From Chloroflexota bacterium (GTDB lineage: Bacteria > Chloroflexota > Anaerolineae > UBA7937 > B3-Chlor), in contig JAUVXJ010000002.1 of the NCBI GenBank assembly GCA_030603665.1, forward strand, positions 1-64,000: 64,000 bases of DNA. The letters are read 5' to 3'. The notes beneath the pieces were generated by a model, which was not told the DNA's origin, did not search any database, and worked only from the letters and a program-made list of their open reading frames with translations. Positions 16,277 to 55,001 of the stretch are shown here, piece by piece. Every line of letters starts with the position of its first letter. The stretch's first letter is position 1. Position numbers and translations under genes: made by a program.

Positions 16277-16513
16277 CTACCTGGAAACGGAAACCTTGAG
16301 CACTTTGCCCTCGTCGTCGGAGGTCAGATGAACGATCTGCTGGAACCGCACCCCATTCGTCGAGCGCAGCGCCTTGCGGTAGGTAAAGTGATGCCTTGCC
16401 TCGCCGGAGTGATCGCTCGTGGTTACCTTTGGCCTCACACTCGACATTTCCGGGAAATGGCTCTTCAGATGCTTCTGGACCCTACCCCTGCACTCCTTGG
16501 TCGGCCTGCTCAT
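16277..16513 (-). CDS. Small protein of unknown function coupled to ftsZ
   Basis: The 78-residue, basic N-terminal protein (MSRPTKECRGRVQKHLKSHF) ends in a beta-rich stretch (GVRFQQIVHLTSDDEGKVLKVSVSR). Its ATG overlaps the ftsZ stop (ATGA), with GGAGG just upstream, so it is translationally coupled to ftsZ. The ending resembles the C-terminal tail of the C25 protease (DQLRHVVKVTVNADGDVVKVLVSRGG), a similarity visible by eye. No known family is recognised. The coupling suggests a role linked to this FtsZ. Confidence 0.6.
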   Translation of the reverse strand: MSRPTKECRGRVQKHLKSHFPEMSSVRPKVTTSDHSGEARHHFTYRKALRSTNGVRFQQIVHLTSDDEGKVLKVSVSR

Positions 16514-17649: not shown

Positions 17650-17718
17650 ACCGTCCTCCCGTGACACACCGCGGTCTACCATGTGAGTAAGCTCTCGAAC
17701 GTCCCTGAGACAGTCACG

Positions 17719-20371: not shown

Positions 20372-20806
20372 TCATATTCCCAGCTCACTCAATTCCTCTG
20401 AGCTTCGCAACGACCTCTCGTTCACTCTGTACTCTTCGTGACTCCACCGGTGAGCGTTCCAGATCTCCAGGCGATCGCCCACCCCAATCAGGACCACTTC
20501 ATCCCCCAGTCCAGCGAAGCGCCGCAGGTATTCCGGAATCGGAATAAGGCCTTCAGACTCCAGTGTCGCCACCGAGGCACCTCCGAACAGATGCCTCTGA
20601 AACGCCCGGGCGGCTGCCTTCAGGAATGACGTGCCGCCCTCAATGCGCTTCAGCAGGGCCTCCCATACGGAGAGAGGGAAGACCGACACGCATCCATCCA
20701 GGCCTCTGGTAATCACATACCCTTGCTCCAGGCCCTCGCGAAGATGCGGGGGCAAGATAAGACCCTCTTGTGTCAATGGCACGCCCTTGGAAGTGCCAAG
20801 CAGCAT
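20372..20806 (-). CDS. mraZ: MraZ-like protein lacking the DXXXR DNA-binding motifs
   Basis: The 144-residue protein matches MraZ (a two-repeat SpoVT/AbrB-fold regulator) in length and layout: TRGLDGCVSVFPLSVWEALLKRI, AFQRHLFGGAS and PEYLRRFAGLGDEVVLIGVG followed by DRLEIWNAHRW. Each MraZ repeat normally has a DXXXR motif that contacts DNA; here they read TQEGL (12-16) and ESEGL (83-87), both without the Arg. Canonical DNA binding is therefore doubtful. GGAGG lies eight bases before the ATG. It follows the SepIVA-like gene by 21 bp and precedes the amidase by 37 bp. Confidence 0.8.
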   Translation of the reverse strand: MLLGTSKGVPLTQEGLILPPHLREGLEQGYVITRGLDGCVSVFPLSVWEALLKRIEGGTSFLKAAARAFQRHLFGGASVATLESEGLIPIPEYLRRFAGLGDEVVLIGVGDRLEIWNAHRWSHEEYRVNERSLRSSEELSELGI

Positions 20807-20827: not shown

Positions 20828-21433
20828 TCAGCCCCTAAGTCTTCTCAGTCGCGCCGCCACCAACTCCTTGATGTCGCGCATCAGAAGATCCAACTCGCGC
20901 TCCAGGCCTTCGTACACATCTCGCGCATCCTGCTGCGCTTGGTCTCGTGTCCGAGCTGCGTCTTGCTTGGCCGCCTCTATTACTTCCCGTGCGCGAACCT
21001 CCGCCATCTTCACCAACTGGCTTTGCTCCAGAATGAGCATCGCCTCCCGCTCGGCCCGTTCCCTTATGGTCCGCGCCTCAGCGTCGGCTTGTTCGAGCAC
21101 CTGTCCCTCTTTCGCCAGGACACGCTGAGCCTCCAGAACGTCGAGGGGCCAGTTGGCTCGTAGCATGTCCAGAGTGGTCAGGCATTGCTCTTGATCCACA
21201 AGAGCTTTGGAGGTCATCGGCACCCTGGCGCCGGAGCAGATCATCTCCTCTATCTCATCTATGAATGGGCTGATCTCGTGCACAGAAGGTGGTTCGCCTT
21301 TTGCATAGGCGCGGTCGCTGCCCGCGCGTAGGCCTTCGTAGTCGCTATCGGGGCACGATCTGTCACTCCCGACATCTCGACCACGAGAGGGGATCACATC
21401 TCTCATGCGCTCACGAACGTTCCATCCTAGCAT
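20828..21433 (-). CDS. SepIVA/DivIVA-like coiled-coil cell-division protein
   Basis: The 201-residue protein has a charged N-terminus, a conserved block (EISPFIDEIEEMICSGARVPM, then SKALVDQEQCLTTLDMLRANWP, then DVLEAQRVLAKEGQVLEQADAEA) and a long Glu/Ala/Arg-rich coiled coil to the end. The block resembles actinobacterial SepIVA and ATP-synthase-b-like DivIVA relatives (recalled by eye, not searched). Such proteins scaffold septal or tip growth. The ATG directly abuts the TAG of the upstream gene (TAGATG) with GGAGGG upstream, so coupling is likely. Neighbouring mraZ-like and ftsZ genes support a division role. Confidence 0.6.
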   Translation of the reverse strand: MLGWNVRERMRDVIPSRGRDVGSDRSCPDSDYEGLRAGSDRAYAKGEPPSVHEISPFIDEIEEMICSGARVPMTSKALVDQEQCLTTLDMLRANWPLDVLEAQRVLAKEGQVLEQADAEARTIRERAEREAMLILEQSQLVKMAEVRAREVIEAAKQDAARTRDQAQQDARDVYEGLERELDLLMRDIKELVAARLRRLRG

Positions 21434-23943: not shown

Positions 23944-26547
23944 TTACTTGCTTCCTTCGTGTTTGCGTGTGCCCCCTCGGGAGACCAGCACCTTGACTAC
24001 GTCCCCGTCGGCGTTGACGGTGACTTTGACCACGTGCCGCAGCTGGTCTTCACCCTTCGACACGATGTGCTGCTGGGAAGCCTGAACAAGCTTTGATACC
24101 CTGTCAGTGCTATCCTGCTCACAACCGCAAGACTGCGTCCCGCACTTCTCGCCCGAACATCCTACCCTGCACAGGATGAGAGGATGAGCCAGGAAGCCAT
24201 CTGCGTCCAGGAAGGGCAGACTCCTCTTCACCTTCTGCCGCGCCTCCTTGGAAAGTGGGAGTGCCTCCGCATCCATCATCCTGGAGCAGCACGCCAGAGG
24301 CGGACAGGCGACGTCCAGCTCGGCCTCCAAATCCGGGAACTTGAGGGCTCCTCTCAGGCTGAGGGAAGGGTCCCCATACAAGACAAAGCCCATGAGCGCC
24401 TTCTGATCCTCTCCGTCCAGATAGCCTTGCTCGTCTGCCACCGTAAGTATGAAGGCCGCCCGTGCTCTGCGCAGCGCATCTCCGATGGAAAGTCCACCTG
24501 AGACACCCTCCCAGACATGCTTACCCAGCAGATCAGCACCAGACAGAGGAGGCGTCAGCGTTCCATACGACATACCGGTGCAGCCGATGAACCCCAGTGC
24601 GCCGCCAGCCAGGAAGTTCAAGGGTATGGAGCCCTCGGGATACGCTCGCTCTAGATCGGCGCCGTAGCAGGCCTCCGAGTACACAACCGACCCTTCCACA
24701 TCGGCCCAGGACACTGAAAGCGGAGTCAGTGCAATGGGCAGCAGAGGGGATCCGTACTCCGAGTCACCGTGACCGTACCAGTATGGGCTGCCTTGGAACC
24801 CATGCAGATTGAAGTAGCCCAGCGTTGGAAGCTCCTCGTAGGTGGTCAGGAAGTCGTAGTCCGTCGACGGCGGAGAGACCTGCAGTCGGCTGGCGTCGCC
24901 TATGACCTCGAAAACGGCGCGCGATGCCTCAGCCCAGATCTCAGCCGTGTAGCCGACGCTTGTCCACTGTCGGCGCTGCGCACCGAACAGTCGTCTAACA
25001 GGATTGAGCCAGGACGAAGAAGAGACGCCATCATCTCTGGAGGATGCCGCATTGTGATGTTCGATGGCGCGATCCACGAGCCCCAACAGCGCGCCCAGGT
25101 CGGCAGGCTCACAGTCGGGCAGACGGCCCACGCTGAAGCGGGAGAGTAGAGAGGTCTCCTCTTCGGCGGCGTAGGGCCAATCCGAGAGCACCTCCGGATC
25201 TTCATCGTCCGCTGGGTTGGGGAGCCTGTGGAAGGGAATGATAGCATCGCCCCCAACGATCAACAGTGACGCAAGTCTGATCGATTGACCTTTGAGCGTG
25301 GCATCGAGTTCCCCGATCAGCCCAGCTATCTGGCGCGGATCGGATGGATCGACACCACTCAAACCAAACTCAGCAAGACAGGAATCGTCGTCCACGCTGA
25401 GTTTGATGCTCTCGTCGCCCGTGGACCGACCTAGGGCCTCGCATAGAACAGAGAGTCGGCTGTCCAGCTCTTCGTAGCCGTCCTCGCCATACCGAGCAAC
25501 GATCCGGTCACGACTGGTGAGAATCAGCCGCACCTGCGTCTGCTCCTCAGGTCCACCGACCGCGGCGTGGTCATCCAGTGTCTCAGCTACCGGCAGCAAC
25601 TGCATGCTCTGGGGCTGGGAGACTGAATCGTCCGGGGGGCCGGCTACCCTGCCCTTCTGCTGTTGCCGATCCGGTCGTGGCACGGCGACCAGCTGATCTT
25701 CTCCGCCTTCCTGAGCGATCAGTGGCGCAGGCAAAGGTTCCCCTATCAAGAGATATCTCAGCACGTTGGGCGCCCCATCCAGCGCCTCCCCGGAGGGCGC
25801 TGCGAGTTCAAAACCCCGCTCGAAGAGCCACGCATACCGGTCGTTCCCGCCCAGCAGTTCCTGAGCAGCGGTTAGGCTGGGGTCGAGAGCAGTCGCGTCG
25901 TGAGCCAAGGCCACACCCAGAGCATCATCTCGGTTCTGCAGGGCGATGTCAGCCAGGATCAACTTGGGTCTGATCCACATGGCGTGCTGCTCGACTAGTC
26001 GTTCCACGAGCGGCCTGGTTCTGTCGACCCGTTCGATGACCCACAGCGCCTGTGCCAGGAGAAGTTCCAGGACAGCTCGCCATTGTGGGTCCTCTGTCGC
26101 GTGGTCACACGCGGCCTCGTAGAAGGGCACCGCGTCTTGGGCTCGTCCGGACCACGTCAGTATGCGCGCCAGAATCAGGGGAGACGACTCGTCCAGTGCC
26201 TTCTCCAGGAGTCCCGCGCTCTCGGCGGCGTAGGGATGGAGCGCGCGGAGCTTCCGCACGTGTTCGCTCTCATGAGGCGAGCCACCCTTTGCCAGCTCCA
26301 CACGGGCCAATCCCGCGAGCGCCCACAGATTGAGAGGGTCCACGGCCAGAGGATACTGGAACTGTTCCTCAGCCTCGTCCCATCGCTGCTTGGCCGCAAA
26401 CGTGTCACCGAGCATGCAGCGTGCAGCCACATAGCCCGGCAGCTGCTCGAGAAGATGCTCGAGCAAGCTAGCTCCTAGTTCCTCATAGCCCAAGTCGAGG
26501 CTCAGTTTCGCTGTGGCGAATAGCTCTCTCGATGTCGTCAGCGTCAC
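23944..26547 (-). CDS. TPR protein with C25 (gingipain-like) caspase-fold protease domain
   Basis: The 867-residue protein has N-terminal TPR-like helices (about 1-235), a linker, and a clan CD caspase-fold domain at about 335-735. C25 landmarks are visible: ASLLIVGGDAIIPFHRLPNP, the catalytic His582 in YFNLHGFQG, Cys627 in VYSEACYGAD, and the closing GFVLYGDPSLSL. Its N-terminus lacks a secretion signal, unlike gingipains, so it is probably intracellular. The C-terminus holds a Cys-rich patch (CRVGCSGEKCGTQSCGC) and a tail like that of the ftsZ-coupled small protein. It starts with GTG overlapping the NACHT-TPR stop (GTGA), so the two are co-translated. A protease fired by the adjacent STAND NTPase is the natural inference. 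Confidence 0.82.
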   Translation of the reverse strand: MTLTTSRELFATAKLSLDLGYEELGASLLEHLLEQLPGYVAARCMLGDTFAAKQRWDEAEEQFQYPLAVDPLNLWALAGLARVELAKGGSPHESEHVRKLRALHPYAAESAGLLEKALDESSPLILARILTWSGRAQDAVPFYEAACDHATEDPQWRAVLELLLAQALWVIERVDRTRPLVERLVEQHAMWIRPKLILADIALQNRDDALGVALAHDATALDPSLTAAQELLGGNDRYAWLFERGFELAAPSGEALDGAPNVLRYLLIGEPLPAPLIAQEGGEDQLVAVPRPDRQQQKGRVAGPPDDSVSQPQSMQLLPVAETLDDHAAVGGPEEQTQVRLILTSRDRIVARYGEDGYEELDSRLSVLCEALGRSTGDESIKLSVDDDSCLAEFGLSGVDPSDPRQIAGLIGELDATLKGQSIRLASLLIVGGDAIIPFHRLPNPADDEDPEVLSDWPYAAEEETSLLSRFSVGRLPDCEPADLGALLGLVDRAIEHHNAASSRDDGVSSSSWLNPVRRLFGAQRRQWTSVGYTAEIWAEASRAVFEVIGDASRLQVSPPSTDYDFLTTYEELPTLGYFNLHGFQGSPYWYGHGDSEYGSPLLPIALTPLSVSWADVEGSVVYSEACYGADLERAYPEGSIPLNFLAGGALGFIGCTGMSYGTLTPPLSGADLLGKHVWEGVSGGLSIGDALRRARAAFILTVADEQGYLDGEDQKALMGFVLYGDPSLSLRGALKFPDLEAELDVACPPLACCSRMMDAEALPLSKEARQKVKRSLPFLDADGFLAHPLILCRVGCSGEKCGTQSCGCEQDSTDRVSKLVQASQQHIVSKGEDQLRHVVKVTVNADGDVVKVLVSRGGTRKHEGSK

Positions 26548-29500
26548 GCTGTCTTGGCCTCCCGCCTGATGTCGTTCCGATCCTGGTACTGATCGGCGGA
26601 ACGGGCACCCCTAGCCACGAAGAAGGCCAGAGCGCTGGTCGCCGCCAGTTGCTTGTAGGCCTCACTGCTGTGAGGCTCCAACTTCACGGCTTGGCGGAAC
26701 ATCTCCACTGCCTCAGGGTACTGCTTGAGCTTCTTGTGGATCATCCCGGCACCGAAGTAGGGAGCGTAGTTGTCCGGGTCGTGGCGCAAGGCGGTTCGAT
26801 ACTCCTGCAGTGCCTCACTGTGTTCGCCCTGCGCCTCCAGTACGCGAGCCAACTCATAGTGCGCTACGGGGCCTGTCGGTTCGAGGTCTACCGCCTTCTT
26901 GAGATGGGCGGCTGCCTTGTCGACGTGTCCAAGCCTCTCACATAGTTGACCCAGCTTCACGTGCGTACGAACGTCGTCCGGCATCCCGCGTAAGGCTTCA
27001 TGGAGTAGATGCAGGGCCTCATCGTAGTTTCCGTGCCCGTCCTCTATCTCGGCCATCTGGTGATAGACGGCAGGCATATCGTCTGCCAGCTCTCTCGCCG
27101 CCTCCAGCTCCCTCATCGCCAGATCGTCCCTACCCAGCTGTTTGTGGAGGACGCCCATCTTCAAGTGATAGTTGGCGTTATTCGGGTCCGATTGGAGAGC
27201 CTTGCTGTAGCTCAATAGCGCCTCCCGCGGCTCACCTCGCGCCTCGGCGAGGCTGGCGAGATGCTCCTGCACCAGTGGCCAGTCGGGTCTCAGGGCAGAT
27301 GCTTCTTCGTACTGTGCAGCCGCCAGATCGTGCTCTCCCAACCTTTCATAGCAGCGCCCGAGACTAAGCAGATACAGTGGTTCATCAGGCGCAAGCTGGA
27401 TCGCTTTCTTGTGGGCCATCTCGGCCTCTTCGAAGCGATCCTGAGACTCCAGGGAGGCTCCCAGCTCAGACCACCAGCTCGGGTTGTCGTCCCTTCTATT
27501 CAGGGCCTCCGTCAGAAACTCCGCAGCCTTCTTGTGGCGGCGCATCTGACTGTATGCTTTGCCCGCATCGCGGTAGTACCTTGCCTCTTCAGAGTCCAGG
27601 TCTATCGCGGACAAATACTCCTCCAATGCAGACTGATGGCGCTCACGCGACTCGTATAGCTCACCCAGCCGATGATGTCTCTCAGCCACATCGGGGTTCT
27701 GCTCCAAAGCCCGGCTCAGTGCCGAAATGGCCTCGTCATAGCGCTGCCCTCGCTCATACGCAGTTGCCAGTGCATAGTGACAGTCCGCGCGCATAGGAGC
27801 CAGCTGGGTGGCTGTCTCCAGGGCTGCGATGGCAGGCTCGAGCTTCCCTACCGCAAGGTAGGCGAGCCCCAGCTCGTAGTGATTGATCGGATCCTCGGGA
27901 TCCATGTCACACGCCGTGCGCAGTTCGTCCACTGCCTCTCTGTCGCTGCCCACAGTCCGCAACACCACTCCCAGGTTGCGATGGTGCAGAGGATTGTGGG
28001 GCTCAAGCTCGACAGCCCTCCTGCACTCTTCAAGGGCCTTGTCCGCCCTCCCGCTCTTGGCGTGTATCAAACCCAGCTGACTGCGCGCCATAGCGTCCTT
28101 GGGCCTCCTGGCGAGATCCTGATGCAGCTCCCTCTCCATCTTGTCCAACCATCCAGACGCCGCTGACGGCGAGAGGGACTTAGCCACGCTCGAACCCACC
28201 ACAGCGAGACGCTGGCGGGACTCTGGCGCATCGGCTGAGAGATCCAGAGCCCTCTCGTGCGATGCGGCGGCCTCCTCAAACCTCTCCTGCATCTCGTACG
28301 CCAAAGCGAGCTCATAGTGAACTTCAAAGCTATCATCGTTCAGAGCCAACGCTCTGCGCAGGCACTCCACGGCGGCGTCACCATCACCCAATCTGCGCAG
28401 TATGCTACCCTTCAGACGAAGGTACCTCACTTCGTCAGGTGCCAGATGAATGGCTGTTTGGCAACTCTGCGCAGCCACTTCAAGTCTCCCGCCGGCTTCG
28501 TAGGCCTTGGCAAGCTCGAAGTGATTCTCAGGATCGTCAGACTCCAGCTCAACCGCTCTCTCCAATTCCTCGATCGCGCGAGCGTGCTCGGCGAGGCTGC
28601 TCAAGGCCGCCCCAACGCCTCTTCGAGCCGCTGCCAGACCTCCATCTGCTTGTAGAGCCCTCTCGAACTGGGAGAGTGCCTCCTCGTGTAAACCCTGCTC
28701 TAGCAGGACTTGACCGGCGAGCAAGCAGACCTCTGGGTCGCTGGAGTCCAGGGCGACGGCCTTGCCCAACGCTGCAGTCGCCTCGTCTGAGCGACCCAGC
28801 CGAGCCAGCACGCGCCCGAGGCAGAAGTGGTTCTCCGCCTGGTCTGGAGCCAGTCTGGCTGCTTCCTCGTACTGCTCCACGGCCAACTCCGGCATATCAC
28901 GGCCCTCATAGAGCTGCCCCAGAGAGAACCGATTGCTCGCGCTCTCAGGAGCCAAACGCACACCCTCCTCGAGCTCAACAAGGGCGTCGTCCAGCCGACC
29001 CAGATCGGTCAGGACGTCAGCATATTGTGTCCTGTACTCCGCGCGGTACGGCGCAAGCCCTACAGCCCTCTCAGCAGCTCGCGCCGCATCGTCGAGGCGA
29101 TGTCCCGACCTGTACAGCTGAGCCAGCACACTCTCGATCTCGGGCACGTCATCGCCAACCCGCGACATCTCTTCCAGCATAGTCAACGCTTCATCGTCCT
29201 GGCCCAACCCTCTGAGCAATGCTGCCACTCGCGCGGCGTAGCGGGTCTCCTGGGGTCTCAGCTCCAGGGCTTGACGGTACAAGGACAGTGCCTTCTCCTG
29301 ATATCCTTGTACCTCCGCTGCCTCAGCAAGTTCGTACAGCAGCTCATGATCTCCCTCAATGAGTGAACTCGCGCGCTCGAGGGCACTGACGGCCGCGTCC
29401 TCCTCGCCCGAGGCCCTACATGCCCGCCCGAGAGAGCGATGGTACCGCCCGACATCGGGGCTCAGCAGCGTGGCTTTCTCTAGAAGCGGCACAGCCTGGT

Positions 29501-32500
29501 CAGTCTCGCCTTCCTCCAGAAGGAGATCGCCCAACTGGAAGCTGCTCTCTGCATCTTCTGGAGCGAGCTCAACAGCGGTGGCTAGAGCACTCAGCGCTCC
29601 ATCTGGGTCGTCCGCAGACCTGCAAGCCACTCCGTAGGAGACCTGGTACTTGTGCACGTGCGGCGCCAGACTCACCGAATCCCCGTAGGCTCGGCGCGCC
29701 TCCTCGTGGCGCCCGACCTGCTCCAGGCTGAGTCCCAACTCCCAGAGGATCTCCGGATCCCCGGGGCTTAGCTCGCGAGCGCGCTCCAACGTAGTCACAC
29801 TGAGTGCGGCCTCACCGCGAGCACGCAGTAGAGCGCCTTTCTTCAGATGGTGAGACGCATTCTCGGGCTCCGCGCTCACCGCTTCATCCAACTGAAGCAC
29901 GGCGTCTTCCGTGCGTCCCTGGCTCGCGTACAGATCAGCGAGCTCGGCGTGAAGCACGACCGGCGCACTCACGGTTCTCCGAGCGGCTTCGAGTACGTCA
30001 ATCGCGTCTTCGCTCCGGCCAAGGTCGCGGAGGGCCATGGCATAGTGCAGCTGAACCTCCGCATTCTCAGACGCCACTTCTGCCGCCCTCTCCAGAGACT
30101 CAGCCGCCTCCTGTGACAGATCCAGCTCCTGCAGGATCCTCCCGAGTTCGAAGCTATGCTCCGCCCTATCTGGTTCCAGGTCGACAGCTCTCTGCGCTTC
30201 AGCTCTCGCCTCGTTGAGCATGCCCAAGCGGCGCGCCACCGAGGCTGCACGCGCGTGGTATTCCGCCTCCTGCGGGCAAAGGCCAATGGCCTCCTGATAG
30301 TCTTCCAGAGCCTCGTCCAGGGTTCCCTGGGCCTCACGGATCCGGCCGAAGAGGAAATGCACCTCTCCATTATTGGGATTCAGTTTCTCAGCCTCTTCCA
30401 CGTAGCCTCGGGCCTCCTCGAGGCGATCCATCCTGTGGCACAGTTCAGCAGCGCGCAGATGGCAGTGCGCACTCTGCGGTGCGATAGAAACGGCTTCTGT
30501 GTACATGCGCCATGCATCGTCGTCCCGGCCCATTTCCTCATACACGCCGCCCAGGTCACTCACTGCCTCCGCCAGGGACGGGCTCAACTCCACTGCCCTC
30601 ATCAGAGACGACACGGCCGCTTCCAGCCCACCCGTGTGGCGCAGGGCGATGCCCAACTGATGATGGTGCCTGGCTTCCGCAGGTTGCAGTGCGATGGCAG
30701 CTTCGTGCTCCGACGCCGCTTCCGTCCACCTTCCCTCCCCGGCGAACAGCAGCCCCAGTTCGTGGTGTGCGCCCGCCAGCCCCGGATCGAGCTCCACAGC
30801 CTCTCGCAGATGAGATTCGGCCTCACTGCGTCGGCCCAGGTGACTCAGAATGCTGCCCGCCAGCACGCGGTACTGCGCATCCCCTGGCTCCAACTCCACG
30901 GACCGCTCAGACCATATCCAGGCCTCATCGGCTCTACCCTCCATGTAGAGGGCAGATGCCAGGTCATAGGACCAGTCTGCCCGCTGACCATCCAATTCCA
31001 CGGCTCTGCGCAGGTAGCCGACAGCGCCAGGGAGCTGATTCATCTTCTGTGCTAGAATGCCGGCCTCGTGCTGGTACTCTGCGTTCTTGGGGTCGGCATG
31101 AGCCGCTTGCTCGTACTCTGTCAAGGCGTCAGTGGTCCGGTCTAGTCGCTGGAACAGGGTGGCCGATTGGTAGTGCCACTCTGCCCGCTCAGGGGCAAGC
31201 GCCAGTGCTCGGGCCAGGGCATCGGCTGCTTCCTCCCAGCGGTCTTGCATAAGCAGCAACTGGCTGATGTGGTGAGGGCAACTTGGATCGAGCGAGTCAC
31301 GCGCCTCAGCCGACTGGTATGCAGCGAAAGCTTCCGCATACCACCCCTGCTTCTCATATGCATTACCCAGCTCAAGATACGGAGCCGCGCTGTCCGGCTC
31401 GAGCATCGTCGCTTGCTGCAACTCTGCCTGCGCCTCGGCGTGACGCTGCAGACGGTTGAGTGCCTTTCCGAGACTTGAGTGATACGCAGCCACGCCCGGG
31501 TTGAGCGCTATCGCGTGCTGGAATGCAGCCAGACTGTCCTCCAACTGATCCTTCTCAAGATAGGTCAGCCCCAACTCGTGATAGGTGTCAGAGCAGGCGG
31601 CATTGGCTCCCTCCACCGCTGCCTCCAGTTCCGACACCGCTCTGTCCACCTGATCCATCTCTCGATAGAGCAAGCCGAGATTGCGCCGCGAGATGAGTTT
31701 CTCGGGATCGCCAAGCCAACGGTCGTCCGCCCGACTTTGGCGGTACTTCTCCCGGTAGCCTAGCAGTTGCGGTCGAGTCCGGGAGTCCTCTTGCTCGCGA
31801 CCTATGATGCCTTCAAATAGGACCGTGGCGTCGTCGGTCTGGCCCAGTTCTTTCAAGGCAATGCCCAACTTGTAGGCGGACGTGAGATCGAGAGTGTCAA
31901 CCAGGGCCAAGGATGCGGCAAGCTCTCGCGCCTTCTGAGGGCCCTCGTTGTGAGCAAGACATCTAGCGGCGATGCGGGGTCCCCAACCATCTATTCGGAT
32001 CTCCAAGAGCTGCTGCAGATAGGCAAGGCGATCCGCTACCAGATGATAGAGGTGGATCAACACGCCCTCCCAGTGCAGGGCAGATTCATCAGAGTCGAGG
32101 CAGATACTCCTGGAGAGAGTTCCCGAATACGACTCACTCAGAGCCAGCGCGGCGTAGAAATCGCGCACCATGGGATCGCCGAAAGACACGGAGTCTTGCT
32201 GTCTAGAGACGCTCACCACCCCTGTTGTCCCTAGGCTGGAGAGCCAATGGCGCGGAAGCCCGCCCGCGGCGAGATCCAGTTGAGCAACAGCCTGCCTGGA
32301 ACCGTACTCTGGTGCTTCACCTTCGCTCCGGCGCAGCATTTGCAGGGCCAGGCCCGCCAGCTGTCGCTTCACGTCTTCGGCGTCGAGTTCGCCTGACGTG
32401 TCACTGGCTGCCTCCAACAGTCGGTGATTCCCTTCCCTGACCACCGCTGTGCCCTCCGCATGCCCCTGACTCGTAGACGCAGCTTGGACAAGATCTACGT

Positions 32501-33356
32501 ACACCTCGGCATAGAGAGGTGTGCGCAGCAGCATCCAAAGGCGCCTGTCTCCTCTGGCTCGCCACACAGCCTGGCGCTTGGTCGACTCAGGCAGCTGAGC
32601 CTGAAGGTACGTAGTGCGTTCCTCGTCGTTGAACTCCTGGAGTTCGGCGACGTACGGATCCTCAAGCCAGCGCCGGAACGCCCCATAGTCGCCCGTACGA
32701 CAGGCGACGATGCACTTCGACTCGTTTGACTCCACCATGCGGGCCAGTTCGTCGAGGACCTGGTTGTCTCGGACCTGCTCGAGGCCATCCAACAAAAAAA
32801 GGATGCGGTTGCGAGCGAAGATCCGATTCAGAGCCTCTTCGTCCACGTGAAGCTCATACTCGCCGAAGGCCGTCGTCAGGGCCTGCAACAGGCCCTGTTC
32901 CCCGCCGGACGCGGGGAGCTCCACATACAGTGGAACGTACCCTGGCGCGTCGATCCCATCCCGCGTGTCGAAGCTCCGGCCTTCCACGGCGCGCTGGGCG
33001 TGCTGGAACGCCAGCCAGCGCAGGGTCGTACTCTTGCCGCCACCCGGCTGCCCCAGTAGGATGATCCTATCCCAGCAGCGGAAGCCATCAGGAAGGTCCG
33101 AAGTACTCTGGAAAACAGTTTCCGACACCCCGTCACTGCAACGCTCGCTATTCTGCGAACTCAGAGTCCTGCCATCGGCCGGCTCGACACGCAGTGGTAT
33201 GTAGGAAGAAGAAATGCGCTGCAGTTTCGGATCGTCAACCAGAGACTGCAGATACTTCCCTACCGTGGCTTGCACGTCTATAACTTCCACGCTGCCCTGG
33301 CCGCCTGCTTCCTCTGGCGATTCCAGCGCGCCTCGGTCCTCAATCTCGCCCATCAT
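26544..33356 (-). CDS. Giant NACHT-type STAND NTPase with about 50 tandem TPRs
   Basis: The protein has 2270 residues. A NACHT domain at about 90-400 shows Walker A LLGQPGGGKSTT (101-111), Walker B RILFLLDGLEQV (Asp190) and a sensor Arg in CIVACRTGDYG (Arg220). After a helical linker (about 400-540), TPRs run almost to the C-terminus with the usual W/LG..Y...G...A...........P pattern, roughly 50 copies of 34 residues. STAND proteins keep a closed ADP state until a ligand binds the repeats, then oligomerise. There are no TM segments. ATG 33356 has GAGG five bases upstream and lies 7 bp after the 2-TM gene; an upstream start would overlap that gene. The adjacent protease is the likely output. 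Confidence 0.88.
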   Translation of the reverse strand: MMGEIEDRGALESPEEAGGQGSVEVIDVQATVGKYLQSLVDDPKLQRISSSYIPLRVEPADGRTLSSQNSERCSDGVSETVFQSTSDLPDGFRCWDRIILLGQPGGGKSTTLRWLAFQHAQRAVEGRSFDTRDGIDAPGYVPLYVELPASGGEQGLLQALTTAFGEYELHVDEEALNRIFARNRILFLLDGLEQVRDNQVLDELARMVESNESKCIVACRTGDYGAFRRWLEDPYVAELQEFNDEERTTYLQAQLPESTKRQAVWRARGDRRLWMLLRTPLYAEVYVDLVQAASTSQGHAEGTAVVREGNHRLLEAASDTSGELDAEDVKRQLAGLALQMLRRSEGEAPEYGSRQAVAQLDLAAGGLPRHWLSSLGTTGVVSVSRQQDSVSFGDPMVRDFYAALALSESYSGTLSRSICLDSDESALHWEGVLIHLYHLVADRLAYLQQLLEIRIDGWGPRIAARCLAHNEGPQKARELAASLALVDTLDLTSAYKLGIALKELGQTDDATVLFEGIIGREQEDSRTRPQLLGYREKYRQSRADDRWLGDPEKLISRRNLGLLYREMDQVDRAVSELEAAVEGANAACSDTYHELGLTYLEKDQLEDSLAAFQHAIALNPGVAAYHSSLGKALNRLQRHAEAQAELQQATMLEPDSAAPYLELGNAYEKQGWYAEAFAAYQSAEARDSLDPSCPHHISQLLLMQDRWEEAADALARALALAPERAEWHYQSATLFQRLDRTTDALTEYEQAAHADPKNAEYQHEAGILAQKMNQLPGAVGYLRRAVELDGQRADWSYDLASALYMEGRADEAWIWSERSVELEPGDAQYRVLAGSILSHLGRRSEAESHLREAVELDPGLAGAHHELGLLFAGEGRWTEAASEHEAAIALQPAEARHHHQLGIALRHTGGLEAAVSSLMRAVELSPSLAEAVSDLGGVYEEMGRDDDAWRMYTEAVSIAPQSAHCHLRAAELCHRMDRLEEARGYVEEAEKLNPNNGEVHFLFGRIREAQGTLDEALEDYQEAIGLCPQEAEYHARAASVARRLGMLNEARAEAQRAVDLEPDRAEHSFELGRILQELDLSQEAAESLERAAEVASENAEVQLHYAMALRDLGRSEDAIDVLEAARRTVSAPVVLHAELADLYASQGRTEDAVLQLDEAVSAEPENASHHLKKGALLRARGEAALSVTTLERARELSPGDPEILWELGLSLEQVGRHEEARRAYGDSVSLAPHVHKYQVSYGVACRSADDPDGALSALATAVELAPEDAESSFQLGDLLLEEGETDQAVPLLEKATLLSPDVGRYHRSLGRACRASGEEDAAVSALERASSLIEGDHELLYELAEAAEVQGYQEKALSLYRQALELRPQETRYAARVAALLRGLGQDDEALTMLEEMSRVGDDVPEIESVLAQLYRSGHRLDDAARAAERAVGLAPYRAEYRTQYADVLTDLGRLDDALVELEEGVRLAPESASNRFSLGQLYEGRDMPELAVEQYEEAARLAPDQAENHFCLGRVLARLGRSDEATAALGKAVALDSSDPEVCLLAGQVLLEQGLHEEALSQFERALQADGGLAAARRGVGAALSSLAEHARAIEELERAVELESDDPENHFELAKAYEAGGRLEVAAQSCQTAIHLAPDEVRYLRLKGSILRRLGDGDAAVECLRRALALNDDSFEVHYELALAYEMQERFEEAAASHERALDLSADAPESRQRLAVVGSSVAKSLSPSAASGWLDKMERELHQDLARRPKDAMARSQLGLIHAKSGRADKALEECRRAVELEPHNPLHHRNLGVVLRTVGSDREAVDELRTACDMDPEDPINHYELGLAYLAVGKLEPAIAALETATQLAPMRADCHYALATAYERGQRYDEAISALSRALEQNPDVAERHHRLGELYESRERHQSALEEYLSAIDLDSEEARYYRDAGKAYSQMRRHKKAAEFLTEALNRRDDNPSWWSELGASLESQDRFEEAEMAHKKAIQLAPDEPLYLLSLGRCYERLGEHDLAAAQYEEASALRPDWPLVQEHLASLAEARGEPREALLSYSKALQSDPNNANYHLKMGVLHKQLGRDDLAMRELEAARELADDMPAVYHQMAEIEDGHGNYDEALHLLHEALRGMPDDVRTHVKLGQLCERLGHVDKAAAHLKKAVDLEPTGPVAHYELARVLEAQGEHSEALQEYRTALRHDPDNYAPYFGAGMIHKKLKQYPEAVEMFRQAVKLEPHSSEAYKQLAATSALAFFVARGARSADQYQDRNDIRREAKTA

Positions 33357-33363
33357 TCCAACC

Positions 33364-33675
33364 TCACACTCTGCCAATCATCCAGAAGGAGACGACACAG
33401 ATACCCACGCCCACCACGCAGAGGAAGGCACCCACCCCGGCGGCTGTGCGTATGAGCTGATTGATAGCCTCCACCATGCGCGCCGCAGAATCGATTAGGG
33501 GAGCCACCGTGTCCTGTGTGAGGGCGCGGCCACTGATCCTTACGGACTGTGCGGACAACGTTTTCATCGCCTGGTGGTACTCCTTGGCCAAGATGATCCA
33601 GAGTCCTGAGAGCGATGAAAGCACCCCTATCACGAACAGGCTGACCGACATTACTATCTGGATCTCGTATGTCAT
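33364..33675 (-). CDS. Small two-TM membrane protein
   Basis: The 103-residue protein has two strong hydrophobic helices (IVMSVSLFVIGVLSSLSGLWIILA and, near the C-terminus, AGVGAFLCVVGVGICVVSFWMI) flanking a soluble helical segment with HQAMKTLSAQSV...DSAARMVEAINQLI. Its ATG overlaps the receiver stop (ATGA) and GGAGG lies upstream. It sits exactly between the receiver and the NACHT protein. I do not recognise a family; it could be a membrane anchor, a signal-transducing partner or a pore-forming effector. The last two are inference. Confidence 0.65.
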   Translation of the reverse strand: MTYEIQIVMSVSLFVIGVLSSLSGLWIILAKEYHQAMKTLSAQSVRISGRALTQDTVAPLIDSAARMVEAINQLIRTAAGVGAFLCVVGVGICVVSFWMIGRV

Positions 33676-34079
33676 GCTCCTGCACCTCCTGCACATACAG
33701 TAGCCTCTGCGACTATTTGGGTAATCATTCTCTTCATGTCTTCGACCACAAAAGGCTTGGTAACATACCCATGAATCCCTAGCTTCCTAACCTCCTTCTC
33801 CGTTTCCGGAGAACCGTAGGCGGTCATCACGATCACTTTCATGAAGGGATCGAACTGGCGCACCGCCTTTATCAACGACAACCCATCCATGTCCGGAAGT
33901 CTCAGATCCACTATGATGAGATCGAACTGGCCCCCAACCACCCTCCTGAGAGCCTCCCCTCCCGCACCGGCCACCTCTACTCTAAATGGTGGGGTCGAAT
34001 CCTCCAGACTCTGCCTCAAGAAGTACGACAGTGTGTCCTCATCTTCAGCTATCAGTAGTCTTGCCAACTTGTCCCCCAT
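33672..34079 (-). CDS. Stand-alone response regulator receiver (CheY-like)
   Basis: The 135-residue receiver domain has the acidic pair in LLIAEDEDTL, the phospho-acceptor Asp in LIIVDLRLPDMDG, the Thr in VIVMTAYGSP and the Lys in YVTKPF; there is no output domain. As the first gene after the sigma-54 promoter it could receive phosphate from the upstream kinases and act by protein contact, perhaps on the 2-TM or NACHT protein. ATG 34079 has only a weak AAGAG upstream; a TTG five codons earlier (34094) is an alternative start. Confidence 0.85.
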   Translation of the reverse strand: MGDKLARLLIAEDEDTLSYFLRQSLEDSTPPFRVEVAGAGGEALRRVVGGQFDLIIVDLRLPDMDGLSLIKAVRQFDPFMKVIVMTAYGSPETEKEVRKLGIHGYVTKPFVVEDMKRMITQIVAEATVCAGGAGA

Positions 34080-34129
34080 GTCGCTCTTGCCCAAGCACAG
34101 CCCACCAGATTCCTCTACTGATAATAGGG

Positions 34130-34145
34130 TGCAAGATCCGTGCCA
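34130..34145 (-). promoter_or_regulatory. Consensus sigma-54 (-24/-12) promoter
   Basis: Read on the minus strand, the sequence is TGGCACGGATCTTGCA. It matches the sigma-54 consensus TGGCACG-N4-TTGCW at every fixed position, with the invariant GG and GC separated by exactly 10 bases. The transcription start would fall near 34119, about 40 bp before the receiver ATG. The genes for RpoN and an NtrC-type activator lie directly upstream on the same strand. Confidence 0.85.
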
Positions 34146-34350
34146 GGCTGAGGATCTGGAGCGAACAGTGACCGAGAACGCGGCCTGAACAAGCAGCGTA
34201 ACTGCTGCGGCTCACGCGGAATACGATGCTCAGGGGTCACATGTAGGGGGCCTCCGCCTGGCGTCCCCACATATTGTGGTCACTCCCCCACGACTTCCGG
34301 TCCTACGGCTCACCTGCCCGCCGCCGACTGTCTTCAGCCAAATCGGTCCC

Positions 34351-34420
34351 GACTCTGAGCAGTCAGGCGTGAGAGTGAGGAAAAACGCGCACTGTGGATT
34401 TCTACGCACTGCTCTGAGCA
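34351..34420. promoter_or_regulatory. Candidate upstream activator (UAS) pair
   Basis: GACTCTGAGCAGTC (34351-34364) and TGCTCTGAGCA (34410-34420) are near-palindromes that share the core ACTGCTC(A/T)GAG in opposite orientation. They lie about 230-300 bp upstream of the predicted sigma-54 start, a usual place for bEBP enhancers. Binding by the adjacent NtrC-type protein is inferred. Confidence 0.4.
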
Positions 34421-34573
34421 AAAGGTCGGACCTTGGGGAAAAGGCGTCGTGCCCAGGGACGGATCAGTGCTAGGGACAGGACACGGGGCAAGCTAGGTGG
34501 GAACTAGGGCGTTCAGATGCAATGCTACACGGGAGGCTACGAGGGGTCCGGCGCTGCGAGGAAGGCTGCCGAA

Positions 34574-35959
34574 TCACTGTTCGGTTTGCAGGCCGTACTT
34601 CTGTATGCTGTAGTTGAGTTGGTCGCGGCTCACACCCAGCAGCCTAGCGGCCCGGCTCTTGTTGCCCTGAGTTTGAGCTAGCGCCTCCAGGATCATTCGC
34701 TTCTTGAGGCCTGCCACCATGGCCTCCATGTCAACTCCTTCGCTCACTGGAGGAATGGGGACCACGTTGCCTGCGAATGCCATGCTGGGCTCTGCGCTAA
34801 TAATTTCGGCCGGTAGATCGCCCACGTTGATCAGGTCACCGCTACAGAGGATCATGGCTCGCTCTATGACATTGCGCAACTCGCGCACGTTTCCCGGCCA
34901 TTCGTACCGTCTCAGCAATCGCAGGGCATCATCCGCGATTCCCTGCACGTTCTTGAAGGTGGCTTTGTTGAAGTCGGCGATGAATGCAGCTACAAACTTG
35001 TCGATGTCTTCAACACGCACTCGCAGGGGGGGTAGGTCAACCACCACCACGCTCAATCGATAGTACAGATCCTCCCGGAACTCGCCAGACTGTATCGCCT
35101 GACGCAGATCCCGATTAGTCGCCGCGACGACGCGAAGATCTATGGGTATGTCCTTTATCCCCCCTACCCGCCTCACCGTCTCGGTTTCGAGAAAGCGCAG
35201 CAGCTTGGCCTGCAACTCTGGCTTGAGCGTGCTGATTTCATCCAGGAAGAGTGTGCCACCATCCGCCAGCTCTATTAGCCCTGGCTTTGGACGCCTGGCA
35301 TCAGTGAACGCGCCTTCCTCATAACCGAAGAGTTCCGTCTCCACCAGGCTGTCGGGGATAGCCGCACAGTTGATGGGCACGAAACCCTTGTTGGCCCTGG
35401 GGCCCAGTCTGTGCATGGCTTGGGCAACGACTTCTTTGCCCGTTCCGCTCTCCCCCAGGATCAAGACGCTGGCCTTTGTCGGCGCCACTCGCTCAACGAG
35501 ACGCATCACCTCCTGCATCTGCTTGTTATCACCGACGATGAACTGCTGGTCCTTGTCCTGCTGGAGCCGTAGCCTCTGGATTTCCTGGCGCATGGCCCTG
35601 GACTCCAGGGCTTTGGCGGCAGTGATACTGAGTTCCTCCAGGTTGATGGGTTTCTCCAGATAATCGTACGCACCGAGCTTCATCGCTTGCACGGCGCTTT
35701 CTACGCCAGCATGGCCAGTGAGCACGATGACTGGCAAGTTAGAGTCAGCCTTTCGGATCTCGTACAACACGTCAAGCCCATCACCATCGGGCAGTTTCAA
35801 GTCCAGTAAGACCAGGTCTACCTGTTGCCTGGTCACGACATCCAGACCCTCCTCCGCCGTGTGGGTCGCGATGGCCTGGTAGCCTTTCTCCTCCAATGAC
35901 TCCTTGATGAAGTAGCTGAGGGTCTCTTCGTCATCGACTATCAAGATTCTGTCGTTCAT
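34574..35959 (-). CDS. NtrC-type sigma-54-dependent response regulator
   Basis: The 461-residue protein has three domains. The receiver (1-120) has Asp in VLLDLKLPDGDG. The AAA+ sigma-54 activator domain (about 145-375) has Walker A GESGTGKE, the loop EGAFTDA in place of GAFTGA, Walker B GGTLFLDEI, and the R-finger region RLLRRYEWPGNVRELRN. A Fis-type HTH ends it (NKSRAARLLGVSRDQLNYSIQKYGL). It would bind an enhancer and remodel RNA polymerase-sigma54. Its start overlaps the kinase stop by ATGA. Its receiver is strikingly similar to that of the adjoining receiver-kinase, which suggests duplication and cross-talk. Confidence 0.94.
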   Translation of the reverse strand: MNDRILIVDDEETLSYFIKESLEEKGYQAIATHTAEEGLDVVTRQQVDLVLLDLKLPDGDGLDVLYEIRKADSNLPVIVLTGHAGVESAVQAMKLGAYDYLEKPINLEELSITAAKALESRAMRQEIQRLRLQQDKDQQFIVGDNKQMQEVMRLVERVAPTKASVLILGESGTGKEVVAQAMHRLGPRANKGFVPINCAAIPDSLVETELFGYEEGAFTDARRPKPGLIELADGGTLFLDEISTLKPELQAKLLRFLETETVRRVGGIKDIPIDLRVVAATNRDLRQAIQSGEFREDLYYRLSVVVVDLPPLRVRVEDIDKFVAAFIADFNKATFKNVQGIADDALRLLRRYEWPGNVRELRNVIERAMILCSGDLINVGDLPAEIISAEPSMAFAGNVVPIPPVSEGVDMEAMVAGLKKRMILEALAQTQGNKSRAARLLGVSRDQLNYSIQKYGLQTEQ

Positions 35960-38061
35960 GGCCCTCCCCGCCCCGCCAGGGGAAGCCTGACTATGACCTT
36001 CGTTCCCTCCCCCTCCTCGCTCTGCATCCAGATCTCACCACCGTGCCCGTCGATGATCCGTTTCGCAATCACCAATCCCAGTCCGCTGCCTCGTGTCTTC
36101 GTCGTGTAGAAAGGCTCAAAGACCCTCTCTCTGTCTTCCCTTTTGATCGCGACCCCGTTATCCCTAATCTCCACCTCGACGTACGGCGCGTCTCCCCTGC
36201 TGGGACCAGTGACCACAACCTCAAGTTGCCCACCATCCGGCATGGCTTCAATCCCCTTCAGGACAAGCTTCAATAGCGCTTGCTCCAGCCGATCCCTGTC
36301 CCCCCTCACCAGCGGCAGATCAGGGCTGGTGTACTCCCAAATCTGCACACGCTGCGCCTTCGCTTTGTCCTCACACTGCACCAGTACTTCGCCGATGACC
36401 TCGGAGATATCAGTTGGGACCAAGTTCAAGTGTGGAGGCCGGGTCACCATCAGAATATCCTCGATGATCCGGTTTACCCTCTCCCCCTCCTTGAGCATCC
36501 TCTGCAGGTCCCGATATCTGTCGTCTCCCTCCTTGAACTTGGTCAACATGTGTTGAATCCCAGCAACCATACCCGCCAGTGGATTGCGTATTTCGTGAGC
36601 CACGACGCCGGACACCTCTGCCAGTACGGCTAGCCTGCCCAGCCTGCTTCGTTCCTCCTCGTGCTCTTTCGCCCGGCTGAGATCCGTGAGCGTGACGACG
36701 GCGCCGCTCACGGTGCCGCCATCACCCCGCAGAGGGCACACGCCCAGCTGGATAGGCGTCAGCTCCCCACCGCTTTCGCCTACCGCTATCTCCTCCTGAG
36801 AGTAGGCCAGGTCACGCTCAAGACTGTCTTTCACTATGTGAGCGCAGGATCCCAGCAGGTCCTCGATCCCCCTGCCGAGAGCGTCCTCTTCCCGACAATC
36901 CAGCAGTCGTTCTGCCGCTGGATTCACCATCTTCACCGAGCCTTGGCCGTCGATCACCACTACCCCATCGGCAATGCTCTCCAACCACCGCCGCTGACCG
37001 ACCTCGCGATCTGAGAGCCAGTTCACGTGCTCCGTCAGAGAACCCATCCGGCACGCATGGCCGAGAGCCAGCGCCAGACGCTCGCCTACTGTGCGAAGGA
37101 TCTGGATCTCACTCCCGTCATAAGCGCGCCCTTCTCGCCGCCCAAGAAGCATCAGTCCCCGCAACCCAGAGCCGTCGCGGAGGGGTACCAGTGCAGTCGC
37201 AATGCCGCTGCCCAACCTGGCATTGAGTTCATCGACCCAGGGATCTGGACCCGCCTCGCTGAGAGGCAAGGCCGTCTCCCAGCGCGACACAGCCTGGCAC
37301 AGAACCCCATTTACCTGAAGCCTCCGCAGTTGTGGCTCCTCCCAGACCTCAGCTGGGAATCGACGCTGTCCAGCGAATACCAGATCATCATCTTCACTGT
37401 CGCCCACAAAGATGACTACCATCCCCACAGAGGGAAGCTCAAGAAGGCCGTCCATCGCCGCTTCTACCAGCTCGTGCACTGTACAGTGCCGCAACAGACT
37501 GCACGAAATGGCATCCAGGATTGAAGCCTCCTCCAGTCTCCTCTCCAGCTGCCGTAATCTCCTGGACAAAGCTGCCGTCTGTTCGATGCCCAGACCAACC
37601 TCTGCCTCAACCTCGACTCCCGCCTCTAGTTTCTGAGACGCAGCACGCTCAGCCTCTAACTCCGCATCAAGGACCATGGTGGTGGTGCGCTTTCTTGGAG
37701 ACGAATTCAGTACTTCGGCCACACTGCTGCTGAGCTGTGCAAGGTTGATGGGCTTCTCCAGGTAGTCATACGCGCCCAGTTTCATCGCTCGCACTGCGCT
37801 CTCGACGGCCGCGTGTCCCGTCAGGACGATCACCGGCAAGCTGACATCCGCCTTCCTGATCTCGCGCAGCACGTCCAGGCCCTCCCCATCCGGCAGCTTG
37901 AGATCCAGCAGCACAAGGTCCACATCGCGTCTTGCCAGTTGATCCAGACCATCCGCTGCTGTGTGGGCCGTCTCAGCCTCGTAGCCCTTCTCTTCCAGCG
38001 ACTCCTTGAGGAAGTAGCAGAGGGTCTCTTCGTCGTCTATGATCAGGATGCGCCCACTCAT
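35956..38061 (-). CDS. Receiver-GAF-PAS histidine kinase
   Basis: The 701-residue soluble kinase has an N-terminal receiver (Asp in VLLDLKLPDGEG), a coiled coil, a GAF-like domain (about 195-335), a PAS domain (VVIDGQGSVKMVNPAAERLLDC), HisKA with the phospho-His in VVAHEIRNPLAGM, and an HATPase with GSGLGLVIAKRI. It has no TM segment, so it is a cytoplasmic integrator. The N-terminal receiver suggests it takes phosphate from, or is gated by, the membrane kinase encoded just upstream. Start and stop overlap its neighbours (ATGA on both sides), placing it in the rpoN-kinase-kinase-ntrC operon. Confidence 0.93.
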   Translation of the reverse strand: MSGRILIIDDEETLCYFLKESLEEKGYEAETAHTAADGLDQLARRDVDLVLLDLKLPDGEGLDVLREIRKADVSLPVIVLTGHAAVESAVRAMKLGAYDYLEKPINLAQLSSSVAEVLNSSPRKRTTTMVLDAELEAERAASQKLEAGVEVEAEVGLGIEQTAALSRRLRQLERRLEEASILDAISCSLLRHCTVHELVEAAMDGLLELPSVGMVVIFVGDSEDDDLVFAGQRRFPAEVWEEPQLRRLQVNGVLCQAVSRWETALPLSEAGPDPWVDELNARLGSGIATALVPLRDGSGLRGLMLLGRREGRAYDGSEIQILRTVGERLALALGHACRMGSLTEHVNWLSDREVGQRRWLESIADGVVVIDGQGSVKMVNPAAERLLDCREEDALGRGIEDLLGSCAHIVKDSLERDLAYSQEEIAVGESGGELTPIQLGVCPLRGDGGTVSGAVVTLTDLSRAKEHEEERSRLGRLAVLAEVSGVVAHEIRNPLAGMVAGIQHMLTKFKEGDDRYRDLQRMLKEGERVNRIIEDILMVTRPPHLNLVPTDISEVIGEVLVQCEDKAKAQRVQIWEYTSPDLPLVRGDRDRLEQALLKLVLKGIEAMPDGGQLEVVVTGPSRGDAPYVEVEIRDNGVAIKREDRERVFEPFYTTKTRGSGLGLVIAKRIIDGHGGEIWMQSEEGEGTKVIVRLPLAGRGGP

Positions 38062-41013: not shown

Positions 41014-42471
41014 TCACCTCAGTTCTGATGGCAGAATCCCCAGCGCCTGCCGGTATTTGGCGACGGTGCGCCTGGCCACGGAGATGCCAGTCTCGGCAAG
41101 CAGCCCCACCAACTCCCCATCGGTAAGCGGATGGCTCTCGTGCGAGACCCACTCCTTGATCAACGACTTGGCCCTGAGTGACCCGTCGAAGAAATCAGCG
41201 AGAGCCACGATACGCCCTCCCGGTAGAAGAGCGTACTTGGAGGCCACAGCCCTACTCACCGTCGATTCGTGCAGACCCAGCTCTTCCGCCAGCTGTGCCC
41301 GCGTCAAAGGGCGCAGATGCCTCTCGCCTTCGAGCAGGAACTCCCTCTGATGCTCGACCAACTGCTCCACCACCCTATGCAGTGTCTGCCACCTCTCGTG
41401 CCACGCCGAGATGAAGAGTCGCCCCCCCTCAACGCAGTGGCGAACATGCTCGTACGCCTCGGCATCCTCCACGGTTGCGCGAGCCTCCAGTGTTTCTGAC
41501 ACGGTTTGATAGCCTCGGTCCAAGGCAAGGCGATATCGCTTCTCCTCGGGAAACTGTATGACGCACTCCTCCTCCCCCTCCGGACCGCGCAGTGTAATGA
41601 TCACATCAGGCCGAAGGTAGGCAGCATCAACTGGTTGCTGAGCAGATGTGTTTGACTGGATGCACGCGTGGATCGGATAGGGGTCTAGATTGGCCTTGAT
41701 GAAGTCTCTGGCACGGCCGACATCCTCCTCTGCGATCTGCAACCTTCCCGCTATCTTCCCCAGCTTGCCCTTGCACAGCGAAACCCAGTGATCCTGAATG
41801 AGATGTCGGCTCAATTCCACCAACTCCCAGTCGCCATCAAGGGCATCTAGTTGGAGCAACAGGCACTCCTCGACAGTTCTCGAGGCGATGCCCACCGGGT
41901 CCTGTCGCTGAATTGCGGAAAGCACAGCCTCCACGCGGCTGACCCGGACGTCGACTGCCGCAGCAATGCTGTCAGTCTCGCAGTCGAGTAGGCCGCGGCG
42001 GTCCAGGTTCTCCAGCAGGAGCGAGGCAATCTCCAGTTCGATGCCCGACAATTGGGGTGAGAGTTGCCAGAGCAGATGCTCTCGGAAGGACCAAGGCGCT
42101 GCCACAGTGGAGAAGGGATCCCGGTCGTCCTCGGTCCAATCCGCTGCTCCCCCGTAGGTATCCTCCTCATCGAAAGCGCGCTGCACCGTTCGCTCAGTCC
42201 CGCCCCGGCATTGAGGACAAGGATTACCAGACAAGACCGAGCCACAGATCTCGCAGTATCCAGCCTCAGTCACCTCAAGCGCGGGGTTTTCGGCCAACTC
42301 CGTCTGAATGGCCTGTTCCAGTTCGACCGAGGCCAGCTCCAACAAGCCGCTGCGGACCACCGTCTTGGGAGTGGTCTTGGGCTTGGGCACCGGTGCACCT
42401 GTTACTCGCAGGTCCACTTCCCCCCCCCCCGGATGGCGAGCCTCACCAGGCGACTCCGCAAGATCACACAC
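41014..42471 (-). CDS. rpoN: RNA polymerase sigma-54 factor (RpoN) with inserted zinc ribbon
   Basis: The 485-residue protein has the RpoN layout: region I (TPKTVVRSGLLELASVELEQ, then ELAENPALE), core-binding domain, an HTH (RAQLAEELGLHESTVSRAVASKY) and the RpoN box (ARRTVAKYRQALGI) that reads the -24 element. Between region I and the core domain is an extra zinc-ribbon-like CEICGSVLSGNPCPQC (Cys73, 76, 85, 88). The start is uncertain: GTG 42471 has a poor ribosome site, whereas GTG 42417 follows a run of 11 G on the coding strand. It heads the sensor-kinase/NtrC operon, so it is likely dedicated to nearby sigma-54 promoters. Confidence 0.93.
   Translation of the reverse strand: MCDLAESPGEARHPGGGEVDLRVTGAPVPKPKTTPKTVVRSGLLELASVELEQAIQTELAENPALEVTEAGYCEICGSVLSGNPCPQCRGGTERTVQRAFDEEDTYGGAADWTEDDRDPFSTVAAPWSFREHLLWQLSPQLSGIELEIASLLLENLDRRGLLDCETDSIAAAVDVRVSRVEAVLSAIQRQDPVGIASRTVEECLLLQLDALDGDWELVELSRHLIQDHWVSLCKGKLGKIAGRLQIAEEDVGRARDFIKANLDPYPIHACIQSNTSAQQPVDAAYLRPDVIITLRGPEGEEECVIQFPEEKRYRLALDRGYQTVSETLEARATVEDAEAYEHVRHCVEGGRLFISAWHERWQTLHRVVEQLVEHQREFLLEGERHLRPLTRAQLAEELGLHESTVSRAVASKYALLPGGRIVALADFFDGSLRAKSLIKEWVSHESHPLTDGELVGLLAETGISVARRTVAKYRQALGILPSELR
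42420..42430 (-). repeat. G11 homopolymer tract at the rpoN 5' end
   Basis: Eleven consecutive C on the plus strand (G on the coding strand) lie just before the GTG at 42417. Depending on the true start, the tract is either the ribosome-binding segment or in-frame Gly codons. Such tracts are prone to slippage. Confidence 0.7.
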
Positions 42472-54886: not shown

Positions 54887-55001
54887 CCAACCCTGCCCTA
54901 AGAAGGCCACTGCCCAGTGCTGGACAAGTGGCCCCCTAATCTGGCTGACACATTGCTTCCAGCAGTCTCGCTTGCGAATGCAGACCGCTTCCAGCCCAGT
55001 A

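Follow-up and report, generated by a model that had tools for sequence, protein, structure and literature searches.

Gene content of the rpoN cluster

The analysed window is a 64-kb stretch of DNA (64,000 nucleotides) from a bacterium of the Chloroflexota, class Anaerolineae. Part of its minus strand encodes sigma-54 together with two histidine kinases and an activator:

41014..42471 (-), rpoN, sigma-54 with an intact RpoN box ARRTVAKYRQALGI (Sigma54_CBD, DBD and AID domains); the only copy in the genome
38058..41012 (-), histidine kinase with a solute-binding (SBP_bac_3) sensor, PAS and GAF domains (domain search)
35956..38061 (-), hybrid histidine kinase, REC-GAF-PAS-HisKA-HATPase (domain search)
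34574..35959 (-), NtrC-type activator with REC, AAA+ (GAFTDA loop) and Fis-type HTH domains (Sigma54_activat 1.6e-68, Response_reg, HTH_8)

These genes lie directly upstream of a -24/-12 element, on the same strand, and a second group of genes follows downstream of it:

33672..34094 (-), REC, single-domain response regulator receiver, first gene of the operon (Pfam PF00072, 2.5e-24)
33364..33696 (-), TM, small two-helix membrane protein, the best-conserved marker of the operon (alignment, 44-89% identity across families)
26544..33377 (-), NACHT STAND ATPase with a long TPR array, 2277 aa (Pfam NACHT 2.1e-11, TPR 1e-157)
23944..26547 (-), TPR and C25/caspase-like cysteine protease (Pfam PF01364, 9e-8; NLHG and E(A/S/N)C motifs)
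21434..23941 (-), glycosidase-like protein with no Pfam match, related to the protein encoded at 8855-11986
20828..21433 (-), coiled-coil (DivIVA/ATP-synthase-b-like) protein (weak match and synteny)
20372..20806 (-), MraZ-like protein (Pfam PF02381, 2e-19)
17719..20334 (-), N-acetylmuramoyl-L-alanine amidase with CARDB/Big domains (Pfam PF01510, 6e-20)
16510..17682 (-), FtsZ2, the second of the two FtsZ proteins of the genome (NCBIfam TIGR00065, 3e-107)

The genes REC to FtsZ2 cover 17.6 kb and either overlap or are separated by no more than 37 bp, and FtsZ2 is likely the last gene of this tight run. It is followed by a 254-bp gap and then by LysM genes and genes for a protein with a SpoIID domain and for an LCP glycopolymer transferase. 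The same syntenic order (rpoN, kinase(s), activator, gap, REC, TM, NACHT/TPR, C25 protease, glycosidase-like protein, coiled coil, MraZ, amidase, FtsZ2, LysM) is found within the family, the order and the class, with some parts missing from the more distant members. The His-Cys dyad of the C25 protease is kept in all 22 aligned relatives.

The T7 loop of FtsZ2 reads NLNLMH in the family of the window, i.e. both catalytic aspartates of the canonical NxDxxD are lost; the main FtsZ of the genome (C18:193382) retains NLDFAD, and in several other families the second aspartate of FtsZ2 is lost. These residues suggest a polymerising but GTPase-poor FtsZ under sigma-54 control. Elsewhere in the window (53573-55009, minus strand) a Kelch propeller is fused to a LuxR-type HTH.

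The genome (G000) encodes one sigma-54 and one full sigma-54 activator domain, both within this cluster. Three weaker matches to the activator domain correspond to open frames of 823-874 aa that contain only part of it, and are most likely Clp/Lon-type AAA+ proteins. The activator has the complete NtrC-type architecture, its GAFTGA-type loop being present as GAFTDA with the phenylalanine kept; the same variant occurs in families f1 (that of the window) and f3, and GAFTGA in f4, f26 and f44. Since it has an HTH, it does not belong to the DNA-binding-less (FlgR/CtcC) type.

Among 248 genomes of the class, rpoN was detected in 31, the TM gene in 22 (a count that leaves out one doubtful match, G188) and both in 20. 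Thus, rpoN is present in 20 of the 22 TM-positive genomes vs 11 of the 226 others (Fisher p=1.2e-19).

The -24/-12 element and its chance level

34130..34145 (-), -24/-12 sigma-54 promoter element TGGCACGGATCTTGCA (exact match and conservation)

The exact 16-mer TGGCACGGATCTTGCA is on the minus strand, beginning with T at 34145 and ending with A at 34130, and is preceded by C. It contains the core TGGCAC-N5-TTGCW, with N10 between GG (34144-34143) and GC (34132-34131). The activator and receiver genes are separated by a 479-bp gap (34095-34573), within which the element is oriented into the receiver gene, that is, into the REC-TM-NACHT-protease operon; the position of the element predicts a transcription start at about 34119. 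The motif, its place and orientation and the predicted start agree with the first-pass annotation, which had described a perfect -24/-12 consensus at this place, reading into the operon from a start near 34119, with rpoN adjacent.

The exact pattern TGGCACN5TTGCW occurs twice in the window, the other copy (2682-2697) being located within a subtilase gene. Across the genome (4.19 Mb in 32 contigs, 91% complete) TGGCAYN5TTGCW was found seven times, as was the reversed control pattern; near-matches numbered 287+321 vs 194+245 in the control. The motif count by itself is not above chance, and we rejected it as sole evidence. The first-pass annotation had stated that many equally good sites at random positions would refute its claim, and formally this is the outcome of the genome search; only the conservation of the site and the enhancer outweigh this result. 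The remaining six perfect sites were rejected as promoters or judged weak upon inspection. All except that on L007, which precedes a succinyl-CoA synthetase gene by about 350 bp, are within long open frames, in either orientation (the one on L003 at the very start of its frame). Of the seven, only the site at 34130 gives the full reading TGGCACG-N4-TTGCA.

Scoring was performed with a -24/-12 matrix written after the published consensus and not fitted to these data (maximum about 20.1 in its usual form). Within the cluster, no site scoring above 5 precedes ftsZ2, the LysM genes or rpoN, and a crude scan of the minus strand of the gap found neither a sigma-70-like promoter nor a terminator.

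Conservation of the element among relatives

Because the chance count was insufficient, different evidence was needed, namely conservation at the orthologous position and the presence of an enhancer. The analysis revealed a strong -24/-12 site in sense orientation in 24 of 26 activator-to-operon gaps (genomes or loci, from at least eight families, which are related and thus not independent samples, many being fragmented metagenome bins). The strong sites score 16.2-20.3, against a highest value of 11.6 for the antisense strand of the gaps. The gap of G075 has only a weak site (12.2), and that of G231 has no -24/-12 site, although rpoN, the activator and the operon are all present. The 22 bp around the site are the most strongly conserved stretch of that length in the gap: 20 of these positions are invariant among three genera of the family of the window, compared with 24% of all gap columns. 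It is therefore through conservation at the orthologous position, rather than through abundance above chance, that the element is recognised as a sigma-54 promoter.

The site also follows the presence of rpoN. None of six rpoN-less genomes with the operon core, TM-NACHT(-C25), has a -24/-12 site (L095, L102, G209, L096 and L098 of Roseiflexus, and a distant TM relative in G013). In L104 and L105, where the activator is not adjacent, both rpoN and the site are present. The exceptions are L093 (Herpetosiphonaceae) and L097, with rpoN and the TM gene and no site, and L087, with the site and no rpoN detected in a small 1.2-Mb bin. One rpoN-less genome (G209, L121) carries a TM-NACHT-C25-MraZ-FtsZ2 module, which can thus exist under other control. 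Apparent -24/-12 sites within the NACHT genes of L100, L101 and L106 are, by eye, in frame with TPR codons, and were dismissed as coding coincidences.

Several gaps have additional features. In L108-L113 (f51 and f53) inverted repeats overlap the ribosome-binding region directly after the -12 element, where translational control is possible. A 14-bp perfect hairpin with a T-run lies between the activator and the promoter in the gaps of L070, L076 and L120 and is kept in f4 and L089; as a probable terminator, it would insulate the operon from that of rpoN and the activator. The L089 contig, filed as Desulfobulbaceae UBA2262, has the f4 version of the Chloroflexota cluster and is probably mis-binned.

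A putative enhancer pair upstream of the promoter

34376..34393 (-), putative upstream activator (enhancer) site AGTGCGCGTTTTTCCTCA (the best match in the 64-kb window to a matrix trained without the window genome)
34391..34408 (+), ACTGTGGATTTCTACGCA, the weaker partner in the enhancer pair, in opposite orientation (matrix score 9.9; paired as in relatives)

Gibbs sampling of the gaps upstream of the site yielded a palindrome-like motif, TGGGGRATTTTCCKCA, with a score of 200 vs 129-133 in three shuffled controls. It had been preceded by a simple palindrome search, which was abandoned since it mixed different hairpins (that of f4 being probably a terminator); the sampler resolved the motif. 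Most members of f1, f3, f26 and f44 have two copies of it, or one copy and a weaker partner, at 166-295 bp upstream of the -24 element; in L087 the distance is 125-144 bp. In the window the pair (34376-34408) is placed about 230-260 bp upstream, with the stronger site at 230 bp. These putative binding sites are arranged like those of NtrC-type activators (usually a pair, 100-300 bp upstream). The window copy also ranked first in the 64 kb with a matrix trained on f26 and f44 only. The exact pattern TGNGNRWTTTTCCKCA is found once in each of the genomes G000, G001 and G002, always in the activator-to-operon gap; since the pattern was drawn after the f1 sequences were seen, this uniqueness is support and not proof.

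Of the further one-mismatch matches to the enhancer in G002, two are each followed 264-292 bp downstream by a perfect -24/-12 site. These extra promoters (L172:4702 and L173:5377) precede genes for a small membrane protein and for a 969-aa protein resembling a histidine kinase, and the sigma-54 regulon is slightly larger in this genus. That two independently found motifs recur at the same spacing argues strongly that the combination of enhancer and -24/-12 element is functional. A match upstream of rpoN in G001 (L059:5720) has no -24/-12 site after it and was rejected. The enhancer motif was not detected in the gaps of f4 or f27, nor in those of f51, f53 and f57, the f51 gaps being short.

The latter three families are those in which the activator ends right after the AAA+ lid, without the HTH (L103, L106, L107-L114). 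In these clusters, except G231, the HTH-less activator is accompanied by a -24/-12 site of rpoN's own. To judge by their sequences, they represent a natural transition from enhancer-bound to solution-acting activators.

Regulation of rpoN

The first-pass annotation had proposed that the promoter and the adjacent rpoN form a closed regulatory loop, in which the promoter would act back on rpoN or its activator. Such feedback is indicated in f27, f36, f51, f53 and f57, where a -24/-12 site (scores 14.4-20.3) lies upstream of rpoN and the loop is thus closed. In the window genome, the best score upstream of rpoN is 5.0 of about 20, and none exceeds 6.1 in f1 (G000, G001, G002), f3, f4, f26 and f44; moreover, the NACHT/protease operon encodes no sigma factor or sigma-54 activator. 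Since rpoN has no -24/-12 site of its own here, the loop is open and the circuit feed-forward, from sensors to activator to operon, and we consider autoregulation in this genome highly unlikely. The gene rpoN itself is a minority trait in the class.

Discussion

We conclude, with a probability of roughly 0.88, that a genuine sigma-54 promoter, dependent on an enhancer, has its -24/-12 element at this site and appears to drive the operon by means of the sole sigma-54 and the sole activator of the genome. This study observed the site with its conservation and, across genomes, its dependence on rpoN, as well as the enhancer pair and the presence of each regulator in a single copy; we infer the phosphorelay, the looping, where transcription starts and what the operon does. 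RNA polymerase containing sigma-54 stays closed at -24/-12 and requires an ATP-driven activator, usually bound upstream. In the mechanism that we propose, the adjoining histidine kinases, one of them with an extracellular solute-binding sensor, would phosphorylate the NtrC-type activator, which would then bind the enhancer pair at 34376-34408 and loop across about 230 bp. Its AAA+ ATPase would open the sigma-54 RNA polymerase complex at 34145-34130, and transcription, beginning near 34119, would cover at least the 17.6 kb from the receiver gene up to and including the second ftsZ. As the genome has only one sigma-54 and one true activator, this would be essentially a dedicated switch of one sigma factor, one activator and one main target.

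The seven equally good 16-mers, matched by seven in the reversed control, could mean that the sequence is a chance look-alike, the operon being transcribed from a sigma-70 promoter or by polymerase that reads through from the rpoN-kinase-activator genes, a view with which the lack of a clear terminator in the gap agrees. The orthologous site in 24 of 26 gaps, its place in the most conserved stretch of the gap, the enhancer pair upstream and the failure of the crude scan to find a sigma-70-like site in the gap all speak against this, and make it extremely unlikely. A different question is what a genuine promoter would serve. The content of the operon suggests, as its most likely role, induced remodelling of the cell envelope and division, in which the NACHT ATPase and the caspase-like protease have about an even chance of being a post-translational trigger. 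The same two proteins could instead point to a defence or programmed-cell-death system, with the wall and division genes as its effectors or passengers: the NACHT-TPR gene adjoins that of the protease, whose His-Cys pair is intact in all relatives, and NACHT STAND ATPases, and rarely FtsZ-superfamily proteins, are known from conflict systems of multicellular bacteria, Chloroflexi among them (PMC7159879). PADLOC, however, matched no known defence-system model, giving only TPR-type matches (PDC-M71B and a stray TPR match to PrimPol); the conservation is vertical and syntenic, unlike that of mobile defence islands; and the amidase, SpoIID, LysM, LCP, MraZ and FtsZ2 are all present in f1, with subsets in other families. 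A primary function in defence or cell death is therefore rather unlikely.

The sigma-54 promoter described here resembles those of NtrC-type systems (e.g. glnA/NtrC) in its -24/-12 element with GG-N10-GC, its paired upstream sites within 300 bp, its AAA+ response-regulator activator with a Fis-type HTH and its intact RpoN box. It differs in the GAFTDA loop (f1 and f3), in its target, a NACHT/protease/FtsZ2 envelope module, and in that activator and target lie side by side, one of each per genome; the enhancer TGGGGRATTTTCCKCA presumably also differs from the NtrC site. DNA-binding-less activators are known from single-activator sigma-54 systems, i.e. FlgR of Helicobacter (PMC3930126) and CtcC of Chlamydia (PMC7482065). 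As in the FlgR (H. pylori) and CtcC systems, the sigma-54 regulon here is narrow and has a two-component activator dedicated to it, and in f51, f53 and f57 this activator likewise stops right after the AAA+ domain. The activator of the window, however, retains the HTH and has an enhancer pair, and the targets differ.

Francke et al. (2011; PMC3162934) described sigma-54 as a controller of the bacterial exterior, present in "some Chloroflexi". The envelope and division role suggested by the operon content is consistent with this link, the target genes here concerning cell wall and envelope; we found no description of the NACHT/protease cluster in that study, and the present target additionally includes a second FtsZ and the NACHT/caspase-like pair. 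STAND/NACHT ATPases and caspase-type proteases have been tied to Chloroflexi and to multicellularity (PMC7159879). Unlike in those conflict systems, for which control by sigma-54 is not mentioned (the word "sigma" does not occur in the paper), the genes of the window sit with wall and division genes. No description of a NACHT/protease sigma-54 circuit in Anaerolineae was found in the open-access literature.

Sigma-54 has a sparse distribution in Chloroflexota and has been little described there, its role in the phylum being apparently undescribed in the open-access literature searched. A conserved circuit with an enhancer, a -24/-12 element, a sole activator and a sole sigma-54 makes this role testable, and links a STAND NACHT ATPase and a caspase-like protease to wall and division genes in a phylum of which many members are filamentous. 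More tentatively, and with the odds somewhat against so broad a statement, sigma-54 may be a single-purpose developmental switch in a large part of Anaerolineae, with one sigma factor, one activator and one ancestral promoter directing NACHT/caspase-like/FtsZ2 envelope remodelling; in several families the activator would have lost its DNA-binding domain and the enhancer, and rpoN would have a sigma-54 promoter of its own. The relatives form a natural series from enhancer-bound to DNA-binding-less activators and, if this last reading is true, would provide natural before-and-after versions of an enhancer-dependent circuit.
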